Positions 26,172 through 35,890 of a stretch of 49,168 nt of DNA are shown here, piece after piece. Position 1 is the first letter of the stretch. Each line of letters opens with the position of its first letter. The notes below the pieces were generated by a model, which worked only from the letters and a program-made list of their open reading frames with translations, ran no database searches and was not told the DNA's origin. Origin of the DNA: a virus. A program made the position numbers and the translations under genes. Location of the stretch: positions 3,987-53,154 of IMG/VR virus record IMGVR_UViG_3300030107_004118. One strand, given 5' to 3'.

Positions 26172-27325
26172 TATGCATTAATATTGATAACACCAGATGA
26201 GAATAGGGTCATCGCACCTTGAGATGTTAAGTTCAAAGTAGACTGACTACTCAATTGAGTAGCACCTAAACCCATCATATTAAATGTACCATCGGATTTT
26301 ATTAGAGAGTTCACAGTAACAAGCTGACTCCAATCCTTAGTAACTGTGGTCATTAAATCACCACTATAAGTTTCAGTAGCCGTAGTACCATTCTGAGTAA
26401 AGATATGATTACCAGTAATAGTCTGGGTGTTATTACCACCTATGGTCTCTGTGTAGTTTTTACCCACAGTCAAGTCCATCTTACCCTCAGTAAACTCCAT
26501 CTTAGCATCACCTGTCTTTGCTGTCAACTTAAATGAGTGTGGTGCAGGAGTATTAGGCCACTTACCAACACCACCAACATCTACATGCAATCTACCACCA
26601 ACATCAAGTTTCATAGAATCTGTTGATCGTATGTCTATCACTCCCCTAGAGTTGAAGTGCATCGTACCTTTCAGATGATTCTGATGAAGCTCATAGTTAC
26701 TCTCTAATTCATGCTTCCAAGGACCACTTGATTTGATAGCAGCAGTAGCATTGTTCATAGCAAAGTTACCACAGTTCATCTCAAGATTACCTGCACCTTT
26801 ACCAGCTTCAATACTAACCTTCTCACCTGCTAAATGCAATTCCTGATCAGCACTTATCTTAACATTCTTACCATGTATGTTGACAGTATTACCTGTTGAT
26901 TCTATATTAAGCTCTCCACCTATCTTAAGTGATAATGGTTTCTCTTCATTTAATAGATTCTCTATTTCTATCAGAAGTCTACCACCTACCTTAAGCACCA
27001 TATTTCCTTGTGATCTTAATATAATCTGACCACCTTGCTCATCCTCACCTACCTTAGCAGATCCTATAAAAACATTACCAGTCTCATCCATGTATATGGA
27101 CTGACCATTATCAGTTGCTACAAGATAAGTTGCTCTATTCTCATCATTAAGATGCCTCAACTCCTTAGTACCAAGGAGTCTGGTCTTAGCCATTAATGCT
27201 GGATTAGTAGCAGAAGATGGTGCAGTATCTGGTGGTACTGTATACTTACCACCAGTACCATCAGGTAATTCCTGATCTTGTACGTCCTTATCGTATTGTT
27301 CTACTGCCTGTTGTGTTTCACTCAT
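26171..27325 (-). CDS. Baseplate hub needle, gp5 C-terminal beta-helix-like
   Basis: The 384-residue protein is made of short beta-strand repeats with regular V/I-G spacing: NMVLKVGGRLLIEIEN, LSLKIGGELNIES, NTVNIHGKNVKISADQEL, MKLDVGGRLHVDVGG, MDLTVGKNYTETIGGNN. This is the triple-stranded beta-helix of T4 gp5C/VgrG spikes. The ATG at 27325 overlaps the stop of the 951-residue gene as ATGA. Together the two genes seem to be one gp5 cut in two, the first bearing the OB fold. No PAAR-like tip domain is evident. It would form the membrane-piercing needle. Confidence 0.75.
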   Translation of the reverse strand: MSETQQAVEQYDKDVQDQELPDGTGGKYTVPPDTAPSSATNPALMAKTRLLGTKELRHLNDENRATYLVATDNGQSIYMDETGNVFIGSAKVGEDEQGGQIILRSQGNMVLKVGGRLLIEIENLLNEEKPLSLKIGGELNIESTGNTVNIHGKNVKISADQELHLAGEKVSIEAGKGAGNLEMNCGNFAMNNATAAIKSSGPWKHELESNYELHQNHLKGTMHFNSRGVIDIRSTDSMKLDVGGRLHVDVGGVGKWPNTPAPHSFKLTAKTGDAKMEFTEGKMDLTVGKNYTETIGGNNTQTITGNHIFTQNGTTATETYSGDLMTTVTKDWSQLVTVNSLIKSDGTFNMMGLGATQLSSQSTLNLTSQGAMTLFSSGVININA

Positions 27326-30177
27326 GTCGGACAATCCACATATCTACCAGTACCGATCTTCGCATATCCTAACATAGATCTTGTATCACTGTCAAGACAA
27401 CTCATACTTGCTAAAGCTTTAGCACCAAACCCATTTCCACCTATAATCTCAATCTTAGGTGGTGTATCATATACTGCTGTTCTATCTATCACCTCAAAAC
27501 CAATAACAAATCCTTTATCATTAATTTTAGCAACAGCAACTGTTGAATCTCCATCAACATAAACAGTAGGAACACTAGTATAACCTGTACCAGGTCTTAT
27601 AAGAGTTATAGAATCCACAACACAAGAAACTGTATCTGGTTTATAAGGAACATAATTAGTTCCTCTCTGTGTTATTCTAATCTCAGTAACACGACCTTCA
27701 CTATCCAATAAAGGAATACCAATAGCACCATACCCTTGTCCAGTAATTGCTATAGCAGGTGGAAGTATGTATGGATCTCCTGGATCATCTATAGGTATCT
27801 CAATGATCTTACCACCATCATCCACAATAGGTTCTGAAAGTGTAGGTGGTTTGAATCCAGGATCCTCTTCAGGATCTTTCTCAGGTGGTGTAAACTCTGC
27901 TTCTTGTGCTAATATATGAACATGAGATACAGCACCAGTACCATTAATACTCATAGTGAGTAACTCTCTACCTTCAATAGTACTGTCTTGTGCAATACCA
28001 ACAATAATAATAGCTTTGTTATCATAAACCTCAAATGTACTAAAGAAATTACCGCCAACAATATCTTCTTTGGTTATATTAGGACCAAATAATGTCCATC
28101 CCAATATAGTTCCATTAGGAATACCAGCAGATGATACAGTATACGTTATAAATTCTCCTTCCTTATACTCAAGCTTATCAGAAGTGATAGCAATACTTAC
28201 TTCATCGTCAATCAGTACATCAGGTGGCTCTGTATATGGTATTGTAGGATTATCTGGATCTGTTTCACCACCAATGATAGGTGGAATCACTTCAGGTCTA
28301 GTTCCTGGTCCAATAACACCAGGTACATATGGATCAGGATCATCTGGTGGTGGTACTGGTGCTAAACCTATAGTAACTGTAGCTTTCTGATTTATAAATT
28401 CTGCTTCACCCACACCAGTAGAATAATCTATCGTTATAGTAAAATCTTCTGGTGTATCGTTTTCATTATCCATATATGTCAATACACGAATAACTCTTTC
28501 CAATTGATTAGGTCCAAATCCAAGAACACCCTCTACTCTTTGATAATCATCACCTTCAGTAGCAGTACCATCTGCTGACTTATAAGCAATAGAACTAGAA
28601 GCTTGAGTATAACCAGTTCTTTTTACAGTAACCTCTGCTGTCTGCCCTTCAATAACATTAACATCAAATATCTCATACTCAACCTTTCTTTCATTTGTTC
28701 TAGGATCACTATCACCAGGTGGTAATGTACCTGCACCTATATTAGGGTTAGTAGGAGTACCATAAATCAATTCATTCTTACCACCACCAGGAGTAATCTT
28801 AGGAGTACCACCGTATATGATACCACCAGTTATATCAGGTGGAGCAAAAGTTCTAGCATCATCACAAACACTCTGACCATAATCAAGTGGTCCATCCTCT
28901 AGTTTTTCAATAAGTTCATCTAAGTTATCCTTCTTGTCTTTCTTCTTAGGTCTAGTGGAATATGTATCCTCATCACCACACTTAGAATCAAGACCACCAC
29001 ATGAGATACCAAGTATAGACATAATCTTAAACAAAGCCCTCCCAACTACATTCAGAGCACTCCCTGCTATTTTAAGAATCGACTGCAGAGGTCCAAGTAC
29101 ACTGTTAAGTAATCTATTAACAAAAGACATGATCTTGTTAAGGATCGCATTAACAAAAATATCAATCTGACATGTTGCTGCTCTGAATACTTTCATCAAG
29201 TAGTTAAAGATCAACTTAGTAACAAAGTCGATCAACCTTTCAAATATATCCTCAATAGAGCATCCAATCTTAGCAAGCATACCTTGCAACCACATCTGCA
29301 CAGATTCCATGATACCTTGGAAGGGTGCTGTTATCATCTTAACAAGAGCTTCAACACCCTTCTTAAGTGCAGCAATTATCTCACCACGAATCCTTGCTAG
29401 AGAAGCTTTAATAACTCTAAGAATTTTGTTAATATATCCTTGTGCTTTGTTTTTATAACCAACAAGCTCTCCGTTGACCTTATTAATTAAATAATCACCT
29501 ATATTACCACCACTGTCCTGAACCATTCTAAACAGTTCACCCATGATATACTTAATCTCTGATTTAGTCTCTCCACCACACTCTGCCTGTGCTATAGCAA
29601 CAGTAACATTAGAACCATATGGATTTACAGGTGAGTTCTCCTTCTGATGCATAAGATCAGAAGCAGCATATGTTCCTGGATCTCCACCAGCAACTTGACC
29701 AGAAGCTAAGTTCTTATTATTCTCAGCATAATTAACTGCTAGATGTGTATAAGGATTAGTATCTGGATGCCTTTTAGATGTGAATGCTAAACATTTTCCA
29801 GCATCTTCAGACGTTAACTCCTCTGGTGCTGTGGATGCAGCATTAGGTGTCTGACCTAGTGAAGCTAATATTATAGGTTTTTGCTTATCAATATCAGTCC
29901 AGACACCAAATACCCAATCAGCAGGTTCTAAGTTAACAGTAGCACCCTTTCTACCACCAACACCATATGGTGTAGTAAGAGGTAGAGTAGCATGTGCCCA
30001 AGGTAAATCTTCAGTTTTTACACTATCACATGAATGAGTATGAACGCCAAGGATCCTCACCTTAAAACGATTAGACGCTTTAATGGTATCAATCTGCTCT
30101 ACTTGGCCTATCCACCAACTAGCACCATCCTCTCCAATTCTATGGAGAGGCATTCGAGATTGAAAAGCAGGATCCAT
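27322..30177 (-). CDS. Baseplate hub protein, gp5-like OB-fold N-terminus with Calx-beta domain
   Basis: Residues 1-110 match the gp5 OB-fold (WWIGQVEQID, NRFKVRILGVHTH, LPWAHATLPLTTP, ADWVFGVWTD, PIILASLGQ). Residues about 210-400 are amphipathic and hydrophobic helices. Residues about 495-605 form a Calx-beta domain (VIEGQTAEVTVKRTG, GTATEGDDYQ, DFTITID), and about 655-760 a second Ig-like part. The C-terminal 150 residues repeat GYGAIGIP and PGTGYTSVPTVYVDG elements. The T4 gp5 lysozyme domain is missing; a hydrolase instead sits in the tape-measure-like protein. Four-base ATGA overlap with the next gene. Confidence 0.8.
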   Translation of the reverse strand: MDPAFQSRMPLHRIGEDGASWWIGQVEQIDTIKASNRFKVRILGVHTHSCDSVKTEDLPWAHATLPLTTPYGVGGRKGATVNLEPADWVFGVWTDIDKQKPIILASLGQTPNAASTAPEELTSEDAGKCLAFTSKRHPDTNPYTHLAVNYAENNKNLASGQVAGGDPGTYAASDLMHQKENSPVNPYGSNVTVAIAQAECGGETKSEIKYIMGELFRMVQDSGGNIGDYLINKVNGELVGYKNKAQGYINKILRVIKASLARIRGEIIAALKKGVEALVKMITAPFQGIMESVQMWLQGMLAKIGCSIEDIFERLIDFVTKLIFNYLMKVFRAATCQIDIFVNAILNKIMSFVNRLLNSVLGPLQSILKIAGSALNVVGRALFKIMSILGISCGGLDSKCGDEDTYSTRPKKKDKKDNLDELIEKLEDGPLDYGQSVCDDARTFAPPDITGGIIYGGTPKITPGGGKNELIYGTPTNPNIGAGTLPPGDSDPRTNERKVEYEIFDVNVIEGQTAEVTVKRTGYTQASSSIAYKSADGTATEGDDYQRVEGVLGFGPNQLERVIRVLTYMDNENDTPEDFTITIDYSTGVGEAEFINQKATVTIGLAPVPPPDDPDPYVPGVIGPGTRPEVIPPIIGGETDPDNPTIPYTEPPDVLIDDEVSIAITSDKLEYKEGEFITYTVSSAGIPNGTILGWTLFGPNITKEDIVGGNFFSTFEVYDNKAIIIVGIAQDSTIEGRELLTMSINGTGAVSHVHILAQEAEFTPPEKDPEEDPGFKPPTLSEPIVDDGGKIIEIPIDDPGDPYILPPAIAITGQGYGAIGIPLLDSEGRVTEIRITQRGTNYVPYKPDTVSCVVDSITLIRPGTGYTSVPTVYVDGDSTVAVAKINDKGFVIGFEVIDRTAVYDTPPKIEIIGGNGFGAKALASMSCLDSDTRSMLGYAKIGTGRYVDCPT

Positions 30178-30426: not shown

Positions 30427-31827
30427 CTAAGATAATAGAACTTCGTTATTTTGCAATTGTTGAGCTCCAAAGGAGTCTCTTTTCAATTTTAACACAGTAG
30501 TTACCTCCTGTGTTCTTTGATCAAAGAATCGGGATAAACTATAAATGAGATAGAATCCACTGTTAGATTCATCCATCGGTTCATCTAATTTTTGATCCTC
30601 TGATACTGACGAAGGTAGAATCACGTTGATAATTTCCCCCACACACAAATCGATATTTCCTGGGACATCAATTCGTAATCCTTGTGTATTTAGCATAAAA
30701 TTACGAGAAATGTTCTGTACTATATTATGCTTACTATAATCCCAGTAGTTATTATCATTCTTATAATCAGGATCATCTGGGTCTGCTGTGTCTGTACCAG
30801 TGTAATATTTCTCGTGGTCAACTATAGTTGATAAAATTCTAGTTGGTTGACCAGAAAGCTTTTCTTGCATAGGATTTAACTTAGTCTGACTACCTAGATG
30901 AGATTGATTATCCCACTCCTTACTTAAGCTATAAGTATATACCTCAAACTTACCAGAAGATATATCATAGGTCTGTAACTGTGAGGAATATGTTCCTAAA
31001 CGTAGTGCATGAATTAGATTTATCTCACTCTCAAAATTAACATTTATAATGGAATCCTCATTAACACCATCATTTGCACTATCAACAAATGATCTTACCT
31101 TTCCACCACCACCAAACTTTCCTTTAGTATCACAGAGAGAATCAATTGATCTGAAATGATATCCCTTTCGATTCTCAAAGAACACATATCCAGCACTACC
31201 TCCCACTTCTTTACCATCAGATTTTTCAGTTATACCTCCAGCTGTCAAGACACCCATATTATTTGCTTTATTAACATTAGAATTCATAAGAGAAACAGAA
31301 CCATTACAAAGAGAATTAATTATCGAGAATGGTGACTTACCATTAGGATGTATTTTTGTATTATTCTGACAAGGAGTTGTAAAGACATCCTTCTCTGTTT
31401 TAATAACACTATCATCACCTGTTAAGATCTTCTTTACTATTACATCAGGACGACCTTCCATTGTCTTAGAAACCTTTCTAGCTTCATTAGTAAGAGCTTC
31501 TGCTGATATCAATCCAATATTATATGTCTGTATTTTATTAGATACAGATCTATCACCAACCATATAGACCATCAGAATATAATGATACTCTGTCTCATCT
31601 GGTCCAGCAACACTCATATGAACTTCTTCACCACCAACTATCTTATTGATTACACTTTCACCAGAGTCTAATATTCTAATATTAGCACTTACATATGGAT
31701 CAGCGATAGATTCATAATAGTTTATAGATTGAACACCAGGAATCAAGTTCCAATTCTTACCAGAATTATCAATTAGATCTAATTTCGTAAAATGATACGA
31801 AAATGCTGAGTTATTATTATCCATCAT
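30427..31827 (-). CDS. Baseplate hub subunit gp27-like
   Basis: The 466-residue protein begins with the gp27 pattern (FTKLDLIDNSGKNWNLIPGV, INYYESIADPYVSANIRILD) and ends in a beta-rich part (SKFDQ-like LSRFFDQRTQEVTTVLKLKRD). Such proteins form the trimeric torus of the baseplate hub, joining tube and gp5 needle. In the operon it lies between the tape-measure-like gene and CP12/gp5. It overlaps the preceding stop at ATGATG, and two adjacent ATG codons are possible starts. Confidence 0.8.
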   Translation of the reverse strand: MMDNNNSAFSYHFTKLDLIDNSGKNWNLIPGVQSINYYESIADPYVSANIRILDSGESVINKIVGGEEVHMSVAGPDETEYHYILMVYMVGDRSVSNKIQTYNIGLISAEALTNEARKVSKTMEGRPDVIVKKILTGDDSVIKTEKDVFTTPCQNNTKIHPNGKSPFSIINSLCNGSVSLMNSNVNKANNMGVLTAGGITEKSDGKEVGGSAGYVFFENRKGYHFRSIDSLCDTKGKFGGGGKVRSFVDSANDGVNEDSIINVNFESEINLIHALRLGTYSSQLQTYDISSGKFEVYTYSLSKEWDNQSHLGSQTKLNPMQEKLSGQPTRILSTIVDHEKYYTGTDTADPDDPDYKNDNNYWDYSKHNIVQNISRNFMLNTQGLRIDVPGNIDLCVGEIINVILPSSVSEDQKLDEPMDESNSGFYLIYSLSRFFDQRTQEVTTVLKLKRDSFGAQQLQNNEVLLS

Positions 31828-34196
31828 GCATTAAGACTCTGAAGACTATTGATGGCATAGTTACTTAATACTTTATTCTCTGTAGACAACTGTGCGAAGT
31901 TCATATTAGTAGCACCTTCATTAGATCCAGCATTATTATTATTAGAACCACTAGGAGATGGAATGAATACAAATGTAGGACTATTTGATGTCTCACTACT
32001 AAGACCAGCAACCTGTTGATTTAACTTATTACTCAATCCCTTTGCTCCTTCTATACCCTCACCAGGCATATATTGCTGCCAATTAACTGGTTTCCATCCT
32101 TCTGGTTTTACAGAATCACCAGAAGTTTGCCATCCATAATGGAAGAAATTACCATCCTTATCAAACATAGGATCTTCTGATGCAACTCTATTACCCAATT
32201 CAGACTGTCCTTTAAAGTCAGTTCTTCCTTTCAAGACTCTAAGTGCTTCCATAAGCTTTGCCTGTCCTTCTTCACTCTGTAAAAGAGATTGAATCTCAGG
32301 ACTATCCACCATAGTTCCCTTCTCAAATGCTTCGTATTGTCCAGGTGCTTTAATAATCTCTTCTATACTCCCATCACCTCTTGCCTTTCTATTAAGTATA
32401 GATGCAGCAACACCATAGATATCATCTGTACCTTGAGCAGCCTCACCACTAATAGCATAAGCTAACCACTTATAGTCATCCTCAGTTAAACCTTTCAATT
32501 GTCCAGTGGTAGTACTATTGCTTGTCTGGAAGAAGTTCTGTCCATTAACTTTAGAGACATTGTTAGTATCACCCAAAACTCCAGTCAAATCTGTTGATGC
32601 TACTTCTACTCCTTGACTACCCAGAATGTTCTCTGTTGAAAAAGCATTAGAATTAGAACTAAGGTTTTCATCTCCATTAACCTCCGTATTATTAATTTCT
32701 TCGTTATTATTTGTTTCACCACCCTCTACGGTAACACCATCAACATCAATGCCTTTATTCTTCAATTTATCAAGAATCATTTCGTTCATTCTTATTTTCT
32801 CATCACCGATTTGAAGTGGAGACTTAGCACCCATACTAACAACAGCCTCAAGTATTCCCCAAAGTTGTTGTAATCTGAATAAAGGATTCTTCTTCCAATC
32901 TTCTTCTTTAAGAATCTCCTCCTTTAATCTTAGAATCTCTGCTTTTTGACCTTCAATGTCTTTTCTTGATATACCATGTGCTATGGAAGAAGCTTCCCAG
33001 TTTGCTAATGCATCATTAATCTTTCCAGTAATCATCCCTGTAACAATACCCACAACACCACCTTTAAACATATTCTTCCAATTGATGGTCCTAGGGTTAA
33101 GGAAGGTCTTAATATTAAACTTAGGTTTAACAGGTTGAGCAGTTACTTGCTTAACAATGCTGGTAGCAGCATCATCTGCAGTACCTGCACCTGCAGTTAC
33201 TACATCATCTACAATACCTGTTCCTCCACCTAAGTTTGTATTTGCAGATTTTATGCTCTTCGATATATTCTTACCACTTCCTGAGTTATCAAGAACAATT
33301 TCTTCAAGTACCTCTTTTTGAACAGTACTCTTACTACTACCTATATCTACTTTCTGAAGATTGGATTGCTTTAATTGCAGATTTTTATTTTTTAAGTTCT
33401 TTGATAGTAGATCATCTTCAACATTAATCTTTTTTAAATTATCAATAGATCTATTAGGGGTTACACTTTTACCAGATTGATTAACTATATCATCAGCAGC
33501 AGCAACATTTTTTTTCTTGAACATGTTACCAAAGAAGTTCTTAGTACCTTTCCATGCAGCACCCAACTTCAATCCCTTGAATACACCAACAAACTTAGTC
33601 ATTGCACCTGCAAGAGCTGTCTTAAGAGCTGCAGGTATTGCAGCTTTAAGTGCAGGGATAGCTGTTGCTAAACCTGCAACAATTTGTACAATATCAGAAA
33701 GCTTACTTAGAATACCATCACCACCTCCCTTCTTTTCTATAGCACTACGATATCCCTGAGTACCAGAAAGGAATTCTTCCTCTTCCATCCTCTCTTCTTG
33801 TCTCAGTCTCTTAGAATCCGCTAAAATATCTGTCTTAAGATCTATAAACGATCCAAGTAAAGTATTTTGTTGCTCTAATAAAGCAGTCTGCTTTTTATTC
33901 TCAGTAACTACTTCAACATCAATTGCAGTACCATCATCATAACTAACTGGATCATAAGCATCTACTGGGCTAGCACTAGTGGAAAACATGGATGTTATAC
34001 CATTAATCCCACTTACTATAAAATCATCTACAGCCTGAACAGAATCCTGAACAAACTTAAGATTCGCAGGATCAATAGGATTCTCACTACCACCAGACTT
34101 AGCTCTCTTCCGCAGCTTCTTATACTCCGAAATAAGAGTATCAGCAAGACTCTTATCGGTTGTAGTTTTTTGATATCCTTGGGTTCCTGAAGCCAT
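31824..34196 (-). CDS. Tape-measure-like tail protein with C-terminal SleB-type hydrolase
   Basis: The 790-residue protein has a polar N-terminus, a hydrophobic alanine-rich segment at about 160-210 (IVQIVAGLATAIPALKAAIP, then KTALAGAMTKFVGVFKGL), long polar and helical regions, and a domain at about 565-700 starting DDYKWLAYAISGEAAQGTDD with ASILNRK. This matches the SleB/hydrolase-2 cell-wall hydrolase pattern, with the GEA glutamate as probable catalyst. The order tube protein, frameshifting chaperone, this gene equals the lambda-type tape-measure position, so it may be the gp29 counterpart. A cell-wall hydrolase here would replace the missing gp5 lysozyme. Its ATG shares one base with the gp51-like stop. 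Confidence 0.75.
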   Translation of the reverse strand: MASGTQGYQKTTTDKSLADTLISEYKKLRKRAKSGGSENPIDPANLKFVQDSVQAVDDFIVSGINGITSMFSTSASPVDAYDPVSYDDGTAIDVEVVTENKKQTALLEQQNTLLGSFIDLKTDILADSKRLRQEERMEEEEFLSGTQGYRSAIEKKGGGDGILSKLSDIVQIVAGLATAIPALKAAIPAALKTALAGAMTKFVGVFKGLKLGAAWKGTKNFFGNMFKKKNVAAADDIVNQSGKSVTPNRSIDNLKKINVEDDLLSKNLKNKNLQLKQSNLQKVDIGSSKSTVQKEVLEEIVLDNSGSGKNISKSIKSANTNLGGGTGIVDDVVTAGAGTADDAATSIVKQVTAQPVKPKFNIKTFLNPRTINWKNMFKGGVVGIVTGMITGKINDALANWEASSIAHGISRKDIEGQKAEILRLKEEILKEEDWKKNPLFRLQQLWGILEAVVSMGAKSPLQIGDEKIRMNEMILDKLKNKGIDVDGVTVEGGETNNNEEINNTEVNGDENLSSNSNAFSTENILGSQGVEVASTDLTGVLGDTNNVSKVNGQNFFQTSNSTTTGQLKGLTEDDYKWLAYAISGEAAQGTDDIYGVAASILNRKARGDGSIEEIIKAPGQYEAFEKGTMVDSPEIQSLLQSEEGQAKLMEALRVLKGRTDFKGQSELGNRVASEDPMFDKDGNFFHYGWQTSGDSVKPEGWKPVNWQQYMPGEGIEGAKGLSNKLNQQVAGLSSETSNSPTFVFIPSPSGSNNNNAGSNEGATNMNFAQLSTENKVLSNYAINSLQSLNA

Positions 34197-34378
34197 TATC
34201 GTTGTGCTTGCTGTTTTTGTTTAAGTTCCTCAAGATATTGGGTAAGGAGTGCAAGATATACTACTCTTTCCCAAGGCATCATATTATCTAGTTCTGTCAA
34301 ACTATATTTATGGTGCTGCATTAGAGCGAAATTAGTTTGATAATACTCCTCCAGATTAGTATGGAAGAGTGCTATGCG
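34196..34378 (-). CDS. gp51-like extension reached by -1 frameshift from gp26
   Basis: In the frame -1 to gp26, 60 codons (first residues RIALFHTNLEEYYQTNF, later KYSLTELDNMMPWERVVYLA) are open from the slippery site to the TAA at 34196-34198. No ATG, GTG or TTG precedes the gp51-like core; the first ATG is at its codon 20. Read through the slip, gp26 (234 residues up to FF) would continue into this domain, giving about 294 residues. The TYSLTEL..M.PWER region resembles the baseplate hub assembly catalyst of T4-like phages. It ends as TAATG with the tape-measure-like gene. I present it as the second half of a fused product, not as an independent gene. Confidence 0.8.
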   Translation of the reverse strand, partial: RIALFHTNLEEYYQTNFALMQHHKYSLTELDNMMPWERVVYLALLTQYLEELKQKQQAQR

Positions 34379-34384
34379 AAAAAA
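34345..34384 (-). promoter_or_regulatory. -1 programmed ribosomal frameshift signal
   Basis: On the minus strand the last gp26 codons are AGT TTT TTC GCA TAG. The heptamer T TTT TTC (34378-34384) is an X XXY YYZ slippery site in the right frame. A seven-base spacer (GCATAGC) follows, then a nine-base stem with one G-U pair (ACTCTTCCA/TGGAGGAGT) and an eight-base loop (34345-34370). This matches the usual spacing for -1 frameshift stimulators. It moves the ribosome past the gp26 stop into the gp51-like frame. Confidence 0.8.
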
Positions 34385-35079
34385 CTCTGCAGCCCCTCTA
34401 AGGTATATGTAGACGACTTCTTAGTATTTGGATTAACAACATCAAACTTATGTTGAAGCTTAGGCATTGTTTCAAAGAACTTAGACACCTTATTGAACTG
34501 TCTTTGAGTAAGACTCTCAATAAATTCCTTAAGTTCCTTCGTTGTACAATCAGAAGATTCAGTAACATCTTCACCATCAAAAATCTGATCTATACACCCA
34601 ACAATAATGTCTAGACCATCCATATCAGTCTCACCTCTAACCCCAAACTCAATGAAATGATCTAACTTAGGGTATTTCATAATAACACCCACATTCTTAT
34701 TGATCATAACTTTTTCAGTATGACCCTTTGGCTTAAAAACCTTAACATCATTAATGTTGATGGTATGTTGTACTTTAGTCTTATTATCATCAAGACATAC
34801 CACATTAACCGTGATTTCTTCCCCTACGGAAGCAGCACGAATCTTAAGGAATACATATTCCAGATCAAAACTAGGTAAATCTTCAATTTTTATACGAGAT
34901 GTAACACATGAATTAATTACATCAACAACTGCTTGTGTTATCTGTTTATCATCCCCTGAGTCCATAGCAATAAGAAGGACTTTCTCTTCTTTAACAAGAA
35001 ATGGACGGTATTTAATCTTTTTTCCGTTTGACGGTAATTCGAGCTCATAGGTAGGAGCAACAACCTTTGGTAAAGCCAT
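34372..35079 (-). CDS. gp26-like baseplate hub/tail assembly protein
   Basis: The 235-residue protein has the T4 gp26 family pattern: YELELPSNGKKIKYRPFLVK, EEKVLLIAM, VINSCV, LPSFDLEYVFLKIRA and FETMPKL..KFDVVNPNT. Its counterpart in T4 is needed for hub assembly but is not a major baseplate component. The last codons hold the slippery heptamer of a -1 frameshift signal, so the protein is probably made in a short form (235 residues) and a long form fused to the gp51-like domain. It lies between the tube-like gene and the tape-measure-like gene. A CTAAATA box lies about 16 bases upstream. Confidence 0.85.
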   Translation of the reverse strand: MALPKVVAPTYELELPSNGKKIKYRPFLVKEEKVLLIAMDSGDDKQITQAVVDVINSCVTSRIKIEDLPSFDLEYVFLKIRAASVGEEITVNVVCLDDNKTKVQHTININDVKVFKPKGHTEKVMINKNVGVIMKYPKLDHFIEFGVRGETDMDGLDIIVGCIDQIFDGEDVTESSDCTTKELKEFIESLTQRQFNKVSKFFETMPKLQHKFDVVNPNTKKSSTYTLEGLQSFFA

Positions 35080-35107: not shown

Positions 35108-35890
35108 TTATTGACCTCTTAATTTCCCATTTTCATCTGTAAGACCAAATAAACCAAATTGAGGATCATCAAAATCATGAGTTGAGGTAACATTATTCCA
35201 ACCCCAATCAGCAATATCATTATAGATCACATGATGCTTAGTGTAATGGAATGTTGCTGTAGCTTTAGTTATCTGAGAAGCACCAAATGATAATGGTATA
35301 GACTCAACCGTGTATGGATAAGCATCGTGAAGTACATGAACTTCAGAAACCCTTTCAGTTGCTGAATCATATCCTCTCTCTACCTTTGCTATCCTAACAG
35401 TACAAGTATAATCATCTGGATATCTAAGTCTAGTAGTTCTATATCTACTCTTCCACTCAGCACTCATTATTTTACCAAAGCTAGCACCAGTAGTTCCTGG
35501 TGCATATCCATCCTTATCAACAGGATCTTCTTTACCAGGTTCATATTCCGCAAATATATACTGCCACCAAGCATTAACAAACTTAAATGGTTCCATATTA
35601 GCATCACACATCCATCCTAATTGAACATCAGTGTAAAGCTTAGTGTGAGCATATGATATAGATCCTTCTCCTAGAAGTCTCCCTTGTAACTGTCCAGTCG
35701 CTGCTTGTGAAGGTGGTAATTGAGCTTCATCACAAAATCCTTCGTATATATCAGCATTAGTTAAAACACTATCAATATAATCTTTCAATTTACCACTCAT
35801 ATCAAATTTTACAGCGAATCCATTGGACATCGCCATACCACCTTTCTTGGCTATCTGTTTGACATATCTTGGTATTGAGGTGTTAGGCAC
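35108..35890 (-). CDS. Tail-tube-fold protein, probably gp54 tube initiator
   Basis: The 260-residue protein starts with GTG at 35890 (MPNTSIPRYV) and has a second possible start at MAMSNGF. The pattern YEGFCDEAQLPPSQAATGQL, ISYAHTKLYTDVQLGWMCDA, KFVNAWWQYIF and ATATFHYTKH is the T4 gp19/gp54 tail-tube fold. The main tube gene gp19 normally lies with the sheath gene, which is not in this window. In this baseplate-gene context the initiator gp54, which seeds the tube on the hub, is the better guess. It opens the minus-strand tail-core operon and is divergent from gp4. Confidence 0.75.
   Translation of the reverse strand: MPNTSIPRYVKQIAKKGGMAMSNGFAVKFDMSGKLKDYIDSVLTNADIYEGFCDEAQLPPSQAATGQLQGRLLGEGSISYAHTKLYTDVQLGWMCDANMEPFKFVNAWWQYIFAEYEPGKEDPVDKDGYAPGTTGASFGKIMSAEWKSRYRTTRLRYPDDYTCTVRIAKVERGYDSATERVSEVHVLHDAYPYTVESIPLSFGASQITKATATFHYTKHHVIYNDIADWGWNNVTSTHDFDDPQFGLFGLTDENGKLRGQ

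Follow-up and report, generated by a model that had tools for sequence, protein, structure and literature searches.

The window analysed here, a 49,168-nucleotide stretch of a marine T4-like cyanophage that is part of a 53,154-base IMG/VR virus record (IMGVR_UViG_3300030107_004118), carries on its minus strand a homologue of T4 gene 26 followed by a gp51-like reading frame. Judging from the sequence, both are very probably parts of a single tail assembly chaperone (TAC) gene, which would be expressed as a short form (TAC-N) and, by -1 programmed ribosomal frameshifting, as a long form (TAC-NC). The initial annotation of the window had proposed such a frameshifted gene, and the proposal is supported by an invariant slippery heptamer, by the lack of a usable start codon for the gp51-like domain, by RNA structure that is specific to the site and by the corresponding fusion in T4 gp51.

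The slippery heptamer and the open -1 frame

The gp26 reading frame (34372..35079; this and all further features lie on the minus strand) encodes the 235-residue TAC-N, which matches PF12322 (T4_baseplate, E 7.5e-71) and phrog_150 (E 1.1e-75) and was modelled by AlphaFold2 with a mean predicted local distance difference test score (pLDDT) of 85. Its 3' end reads CAG AGT TTT TTC GCA TAG, the two Phe codons being the fourth and third from the end. The heptamer T TTT TTC in X XXY YYZ phase occupies 34378..34384, where the initial annotation had placed it four codons before the end of gp26. It is followed by the 7-nt spacer GCATAGC (34371..34377), which holds the 0-frame stop codon TAG (34374-34372), and by a putative stimulatory hairpin (34345..34370) with an 8-nt loop and a stem of 9 bp (ACTCTTCCA / TGGAGGAGT).

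Read in the -1 frame from the heptamer, the sequence gives FFRIALFHTNLEEYYQTNFALMQHHKYSLTELDNMMPWERVVYLALLTQYLEELKQKQQAQR up to the stop codon TAA at 34198..34196. This gp51-like domain (TAC-C, 34196..34384) comprises 62 codons plus TAA when counted from the heptamer and 60 codons when counted after the two Phe, as the initial annotation had it. Its gp51-like nature is borne out by a match to phrog_634 (E 5e-27), and the structural model is all-helical (mean pLDDT 83). The predicted frameshift fusion TAC-NC (34196..35079) would contain 294 residues (234 + 60), with its domains arranged like those of full-length T4 gp51.

By itself the word TTTTTTC is no rarity in the window (13 occurrences, 9.3 expected), and the case therefore rests on the comparison among relatives. 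From viral contigs and named phages 274 relatives were collected, 270 of them with a complete -1 frame, and 183 were retained after dereplication. An in-frame T TTT TTN lies inside the last five gp26 codons in 268 of the 274. The six exceptions represent two near-identical types; the three that were inspected (L231, L211 and L185) carry the heptamer at the homologous place and the 0-frame stop several codons later. A wider scan over 19 codons detected the heptamer in every relative examined. The initial annotation had suggested looking for it in other T4-like cyanophages, and in the dereplicated set it is missing from none (183/183; TTTTTTC in 166, TTTTTTT in 15, TTTTTTG and TTTTTTA in one each). 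As a separate observation, the 0-frame of L211, L230, L231, L233, L245 and L185 runs on past the heptamer, by which the short form gains a C-terminal extension.

The conservation extends to synonymous positions. Nine kinds of codon precede the heptamer among the 183 relatives, all of them with T as the third base even though synonymous codons with another ending exist for each. All 183 relatives use TTT as the first Phe codon, compared with 66% TTT over all Phe codons of the same genes, and within these genes T TTT TTY occurs at just one of 187 other Phe-Phe pairs. The gp26 identity to the window falls to 24-30% in some relatives; over such a distance, synonymous sites free of constraint should be randomised.

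A run of T could also cause slippage of the RNA polymerase and hence mRNAs of altered frame, and a T6-T7 run is indeed always present. However, the run is just T6 and ended by C in 166/183 relatives, and six T are short for productive polymerase slippage. Furthermore, the X XXY YYZ phase in which the heptamer is kept is that of ribosomal slippage, and downstream structure follows at ribosomal spacing. On account of phase and downstream structure we rejected transcriptional slippage, which appears highly improbable. A sequencing error or a decayed gene, in favour of which nothing was found, is refuted by 270 separate records that show the same frame relation and a complete -1 reading frame, and can practically be disregarded.

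In public annotations gp51 is treated as a short gene of its own, with its own start, where translation would begin through coupling or through reinitiation past the gp26 stop. Many records are annotated in this way, the gp51 start of P-SSM2 being placed 2 nt after the gp26 stop, and in 79/183 relatives an in-frame ATG follows the heptamer at codon index 4-6. The start is, however, not conserved: before codon 16 after the heptamer 77/183 relatives lack an ATG, and 47/183 lack all of ATG, GTG and TTG, though the residues encoded there are conserved (L11 is nearly invariant, and the core that follows it, with N18 and F19, is conserved). Upstream of the heptamer the open -1 frame lacks ATG, GTG and TTG in 177/183 relatives, and a -1 stop lies at most four codons upstream in 71/183. 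In the window the earliest of these start codons lies at codon 22, within the conserved core, in agreement with the initial annotation, which had found no start for the gp51-like domain before its core.

The annotated starts vary as well, gp51 beginning differently in P-SSM2, S-PM2, S-RSM4 and Syn9 and being omitted from the records of ACG-2014e, S-WAM2, ACG-2014b and Sf-CH1b. Moreover, a separate gp51 would leave the invariant heptamer and the structure peak unexplained, and in T4 gp51 the same domain is fused to a gp26-like N-terminus. An independent start was rejected since start codons are not conserved in the -1 frame of the 183 relatives, and we regard a separate gp51 gene as very unlikely.

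RNA structure and the proposed mechanism

Both the seven-base spacer and the nine-pair stem-loop described in the initial annotation are present in the window; the stem includes two G-U pairs, and a 35-nt piece folds with a minimum free energy of about -12 kcal/mol. Folding in the relatives was tested with the protein kept and synonymous codons resampled as controls, together with positional controls along the gene. Over the 183 relatives the 48 nt after the heptamer gave a mean z of -1.98 (-1.66 in a first run with codon usage taken from the C-domain alone), compared with mean values of -0.10 to -0.74 for positions at least 30 nt into the C-domain and for the whole gp26 body.

The window's exact stem is common to its nearest relatives, and other hairpins take its place in other lineages. 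In the relatives 78.7% of the cells of the stem are paired, versus at most 58% when the stem is slid. Of the stem that the initial annotation proposed to seek in relatives, a structure peak at the site was recovered, whereas the exact pairing varies between lineages. The folding energies support a putative stimulatory structure at the frameshift site; a single conserved stem is unsupported. Among -1 frameshifted TAC genes, a downstream RNA structure at ribosomal spacing is common but not universal.

According to the proposed mechanism, most ribosomes would halt at the TAG and release the 235-residue TAC-N. A minority would pause at the downstream hairpin with two Phe-tRNAs on UUU UUC, both tRNAs would re-pair with UUU UUU one base upstream, and these ribosomes would read on in the -1 frame over 60 more codons to yield the 294-residue TAC-NC. 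TACs of the lambda G/GT type comprise two products in a fixed ratio that bind the tape measure protein and the tube protein and are not part of the virion. By analogy, many TAC-N and few TAC-NC molecules may coat the tape measure protein encoded next, the extra C-terminal domain of TAC-NC may recruit tube subunits, and both forms would then depart. We infer that the slippage occurs, with an efficiency that would keep the long form in the minority, and that the products act as chaperones.

Relation to T4 gp26/gp51 and to other tail assembly chaperones

The comparison with T4 provides a counterpart of the predicted fusion. The cyanophage-type gp26 profile matches T4 gp26 (E 7.5e-26), both being homologous over their length, and T4 gp26 consists of PF12322 alone (E 8.8e-64). 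In T4 gp51 PF12322 covers residues 1-201 (E 3.9e-52), and the remaining C-terminus is matched by the TAC-C profile (E 2.2e-7; E 2e-13 for gp51 of Providencia PSTCR6). Given these matches, T4 gp51 represents a second copy of gp26 to which the domain encoded by cyanophages in the -1 frame is fused. Unlike in the window, the two forms of T4 come from two separate, divergently transcribed genes and need no frameshift, and T4 gp26 carries TTC TTT where the heptamer stands elsewhere. No second gp26-like place was found in the 53-kb record, which may itself be a fragment, and the long form would require frameshifting at this locus. A search of NCBIfam returned no match for gp26 or gp51.

The gp51 of cyanophages and marine vibriophages has been described as having about 20% of the T4 length, with the first ~200 residues missing (PMC3037559). 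This follows if gp51 is the tail of a predicted gp26 fusion, the remainder of which is supplied by gp26.

As a side observation, T4 gp26 weakly matches phrog_1140 (E 9e-4), the PHROG family of T4 gp28 (gene 28, L082 8349-8882), and gp28 is annotated as a tape measure assembly chaperone in the record of Acinetobacter phage Stupor. T4 gp28 may be a further relative of gp26.

A chaperone role of gp26 and gp51 is supported by the T4 literature, the gene order and database annotation. Both T4 proteins are listed as hub assembly chaperones, gp51 being needed for assembly and absent from the particle (PMC3004832), and in the record of phage Stupor both are called 'tape measure protein assembly chaperone'. 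The frameshift might nevertheless be real and its products baseplate hub parts or hub-specific factors, as the classic T4 label of gp26 and gp51 has it, instead of chaperones of the G/GT type. T4 genetics assigns gp26 and gp51 to hub assembly, there is also evidence that would place gp26 perhaps in the hub itself (PMC3004832), and the Pfam and PHROG names point the same way. However, PMC3004832 itself counts both among the chaperones, and the two-isoform layout, the place before a tape-measure-like gene and the overlap with its start are TAC features. Since the T4 hub contains the tape measure, the hub and chaperone views are compatible; a role confined to the hub seems unlikely.

Among established -1 frameshifts, phage P2 E / E+E' resembles the predicted TAC gene in its T TTT TTG site in the same phase, in its short and long forms and in the overlap of the long form's end with the start of the next gene, in P2 the tape measure gene T, but its proteins are much smaller (91 / 142 residues). 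Lambda G/GT resembles it in the -1 fusion, in an overlap with the next gene (8 nt with H in lambda) and, if the window's next gene is a tape measure gene, in the order of tube gene, chaperone and tape measure gene, but has a different slip site (G GGA AAG). The TAC genes of Vandenendeviridae and Andersonviridae, which are different phage families, are likewise characterised by a conserved GTTTTT at the end of TAC-N and an open -1 frame (PMC12846349). The likeness to lambda G/GT stated in the initial annotation holds for architecture and mechanism, and no homology was detected in sequence; the link to lambda G/GT and P2 E/E' is one of layout, by analogy, and common descent is not implied.

Profile searches of the PDB by sequence with TAC-N and TAC-C gave nothing relevant, and a viral fold search with the TAC-C model recovered little beyond annotated relatives. 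Among the matches listed for the gp26 model, the highest-probability PDB fold match was a local one to the HK97 chaperone gp13/gp14 (2OB9), which is suggestive only.

Neighbouring genes and distribution

The gene order of the window would correspond to that of lambda V, G/GT and H, as the initial annotation had claimed, with a tail-tube-fold protein upstream (35108..35890; PF23849 Phage_TTP_2, E 5e-51; phrog_45 tail tube, E 5.2e-28), followed by TAC-N/TAC-C and a gene for a 790-aa product (31824..34196). The downstream part of this claim is supported by position and overlap: the ATG of the 790-aa gene overlaps the TAC-C stop (TAATG, window 34194-34198), and a corresponding overlap is found in 129 of 153 relatives scored. 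Its product has a muralytic-like domain at about residues 562-713 (phrog_12490, E 8e-42) and a hydrophobic stretch, and the length of its counterparts varies widely among relatives. It had no match to a tape measure family in the Pfam and PHROG searches. In phage phiM12 weak tape measure matches were obtained for the second gene downstream of gp51. Considering its position and the phiM12 gene, the 790-aa candidate is probably the tape measure protein.

The start of the tape-measure-like gene lies ~175 nt beyond the 0-frame stop, on a stop codon that only frameshifted ribosomes would reach, and no obvious Shine-Dalgarno sequence precedes it. This arrangement hints at a coupling of its translation to the frameshifted ribosomes.

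Further along the window (27322-30177) a 951-aa product is encoded, of which residues 513-584 match the Calx-beta-containing model TIGR00845 far under the curated cut-off. Judged by its position it is probably a baseplate or hub protein.

Several points weigh against a frameshifted chaperone gene. The relatives are linked by shared ancestry, and 183 counts do not equal 183 independent events. The exact stem of the window is clade-specific and its pairwise covariation weak, with a score that 27 of 500 shuffles reached, and on mixed lineages RNAalifold picked a different weak structure and did not return the window stem as consensus. Pair covariation was for these reasons dropped as proof of the stem, and the synonymous-codon energy test was used instead. 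In sequence comparisons the TAC showed no homology to lambda GT or P2 E/E'. The similarity of the gp26 AlphaFold2 model to 2OB9 is not significant (E 0.94, probability 0.57, 78 columns), and the assignment of the next gene as a tape measure gene depends on its position.

The frameshift layout is present in Kyanoviridae, in the Vibrio phage nt-1 group of Straboviridae, in phiM12, Mendera and Otagovirus, and in Pootjesviridae. Two outlying cases were observed besides. In Ackermannviridae of the Serratia phage 2050H1 type (L092 2941-3900, L286 and L287) a TAC-C-like domain follows gp26 in the -1 frame, and the junction CAG GTT TTC ATC TGA contains neither a T6 heptamer nor an early ATG, which implies a different slip site or mechanism. 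In Vibrio phage K476 (L093 3600-3910) gp26 ends ACG CTT TTT GCG TAATGATGG; because ATG codons of the -1 frame lie at the gp26 stop, reinitiation is a real alternative to frameshifting in this phage.

TAC genes of T4-like phages have reportedly been identified by Vladimirov et al. 2022. A review of 2016 considered G-T frameshifting to be conserved in long-tailed phages 'except T4' (PMC5009743). Where PMC10274946 refers to Vladimirov et al. 2022, it describes short and long copies as separate genes in some T4-like phages, and PMC12846349 cites the same study in connection with slippery poly-T sites that T4-like phages carry in their TAC-N genes. As far as these citing passages go, the principle of TAC frameshifting in T4-like phages has already been published, and this may also apply to the cyanophage case. 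Our literature search, which did not cover the text of Vladimirov et al. 2022, found no explicit description of a cyanophage gp26/gp51 frameshift. The present analysis contributes the breadth of the site with its statistics, a structure test that includes positional controls, and an account of why gp51 looks 'reduced'.

As a more speculative extension, which we regard as possible but rather doubtful, the frameshift may also set the dose of the tape measure protein, and it may be the older state in the wider T4-like group, replaced in T4-type phages. If translation of the tape measure gene depends on ribosomes that end at the TAC-C stop, one slip would yield one TAC-NC and one tape measure protein, their ratio thereby being fixed. 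If the -1 frameshift is older, a gp26 duplication together with fusion of the long form would have taken its place in T4-type phages.

In marine T4-like phages gp51 has been described as a reduced gene, and its annotation in the records is inconsistent or missing; it would instead form the C-terminal part of a predicted frameshift product. A corrected gp26/gp51 annotation would allow proteomics searches to find the junction peptide. The same two-isoform output would be reached by two routes, by a frameshift in one group and by two separate genes in T4-type phages, and this contrast would offer a clean system for asking how important the ratio of the short to the long form is.

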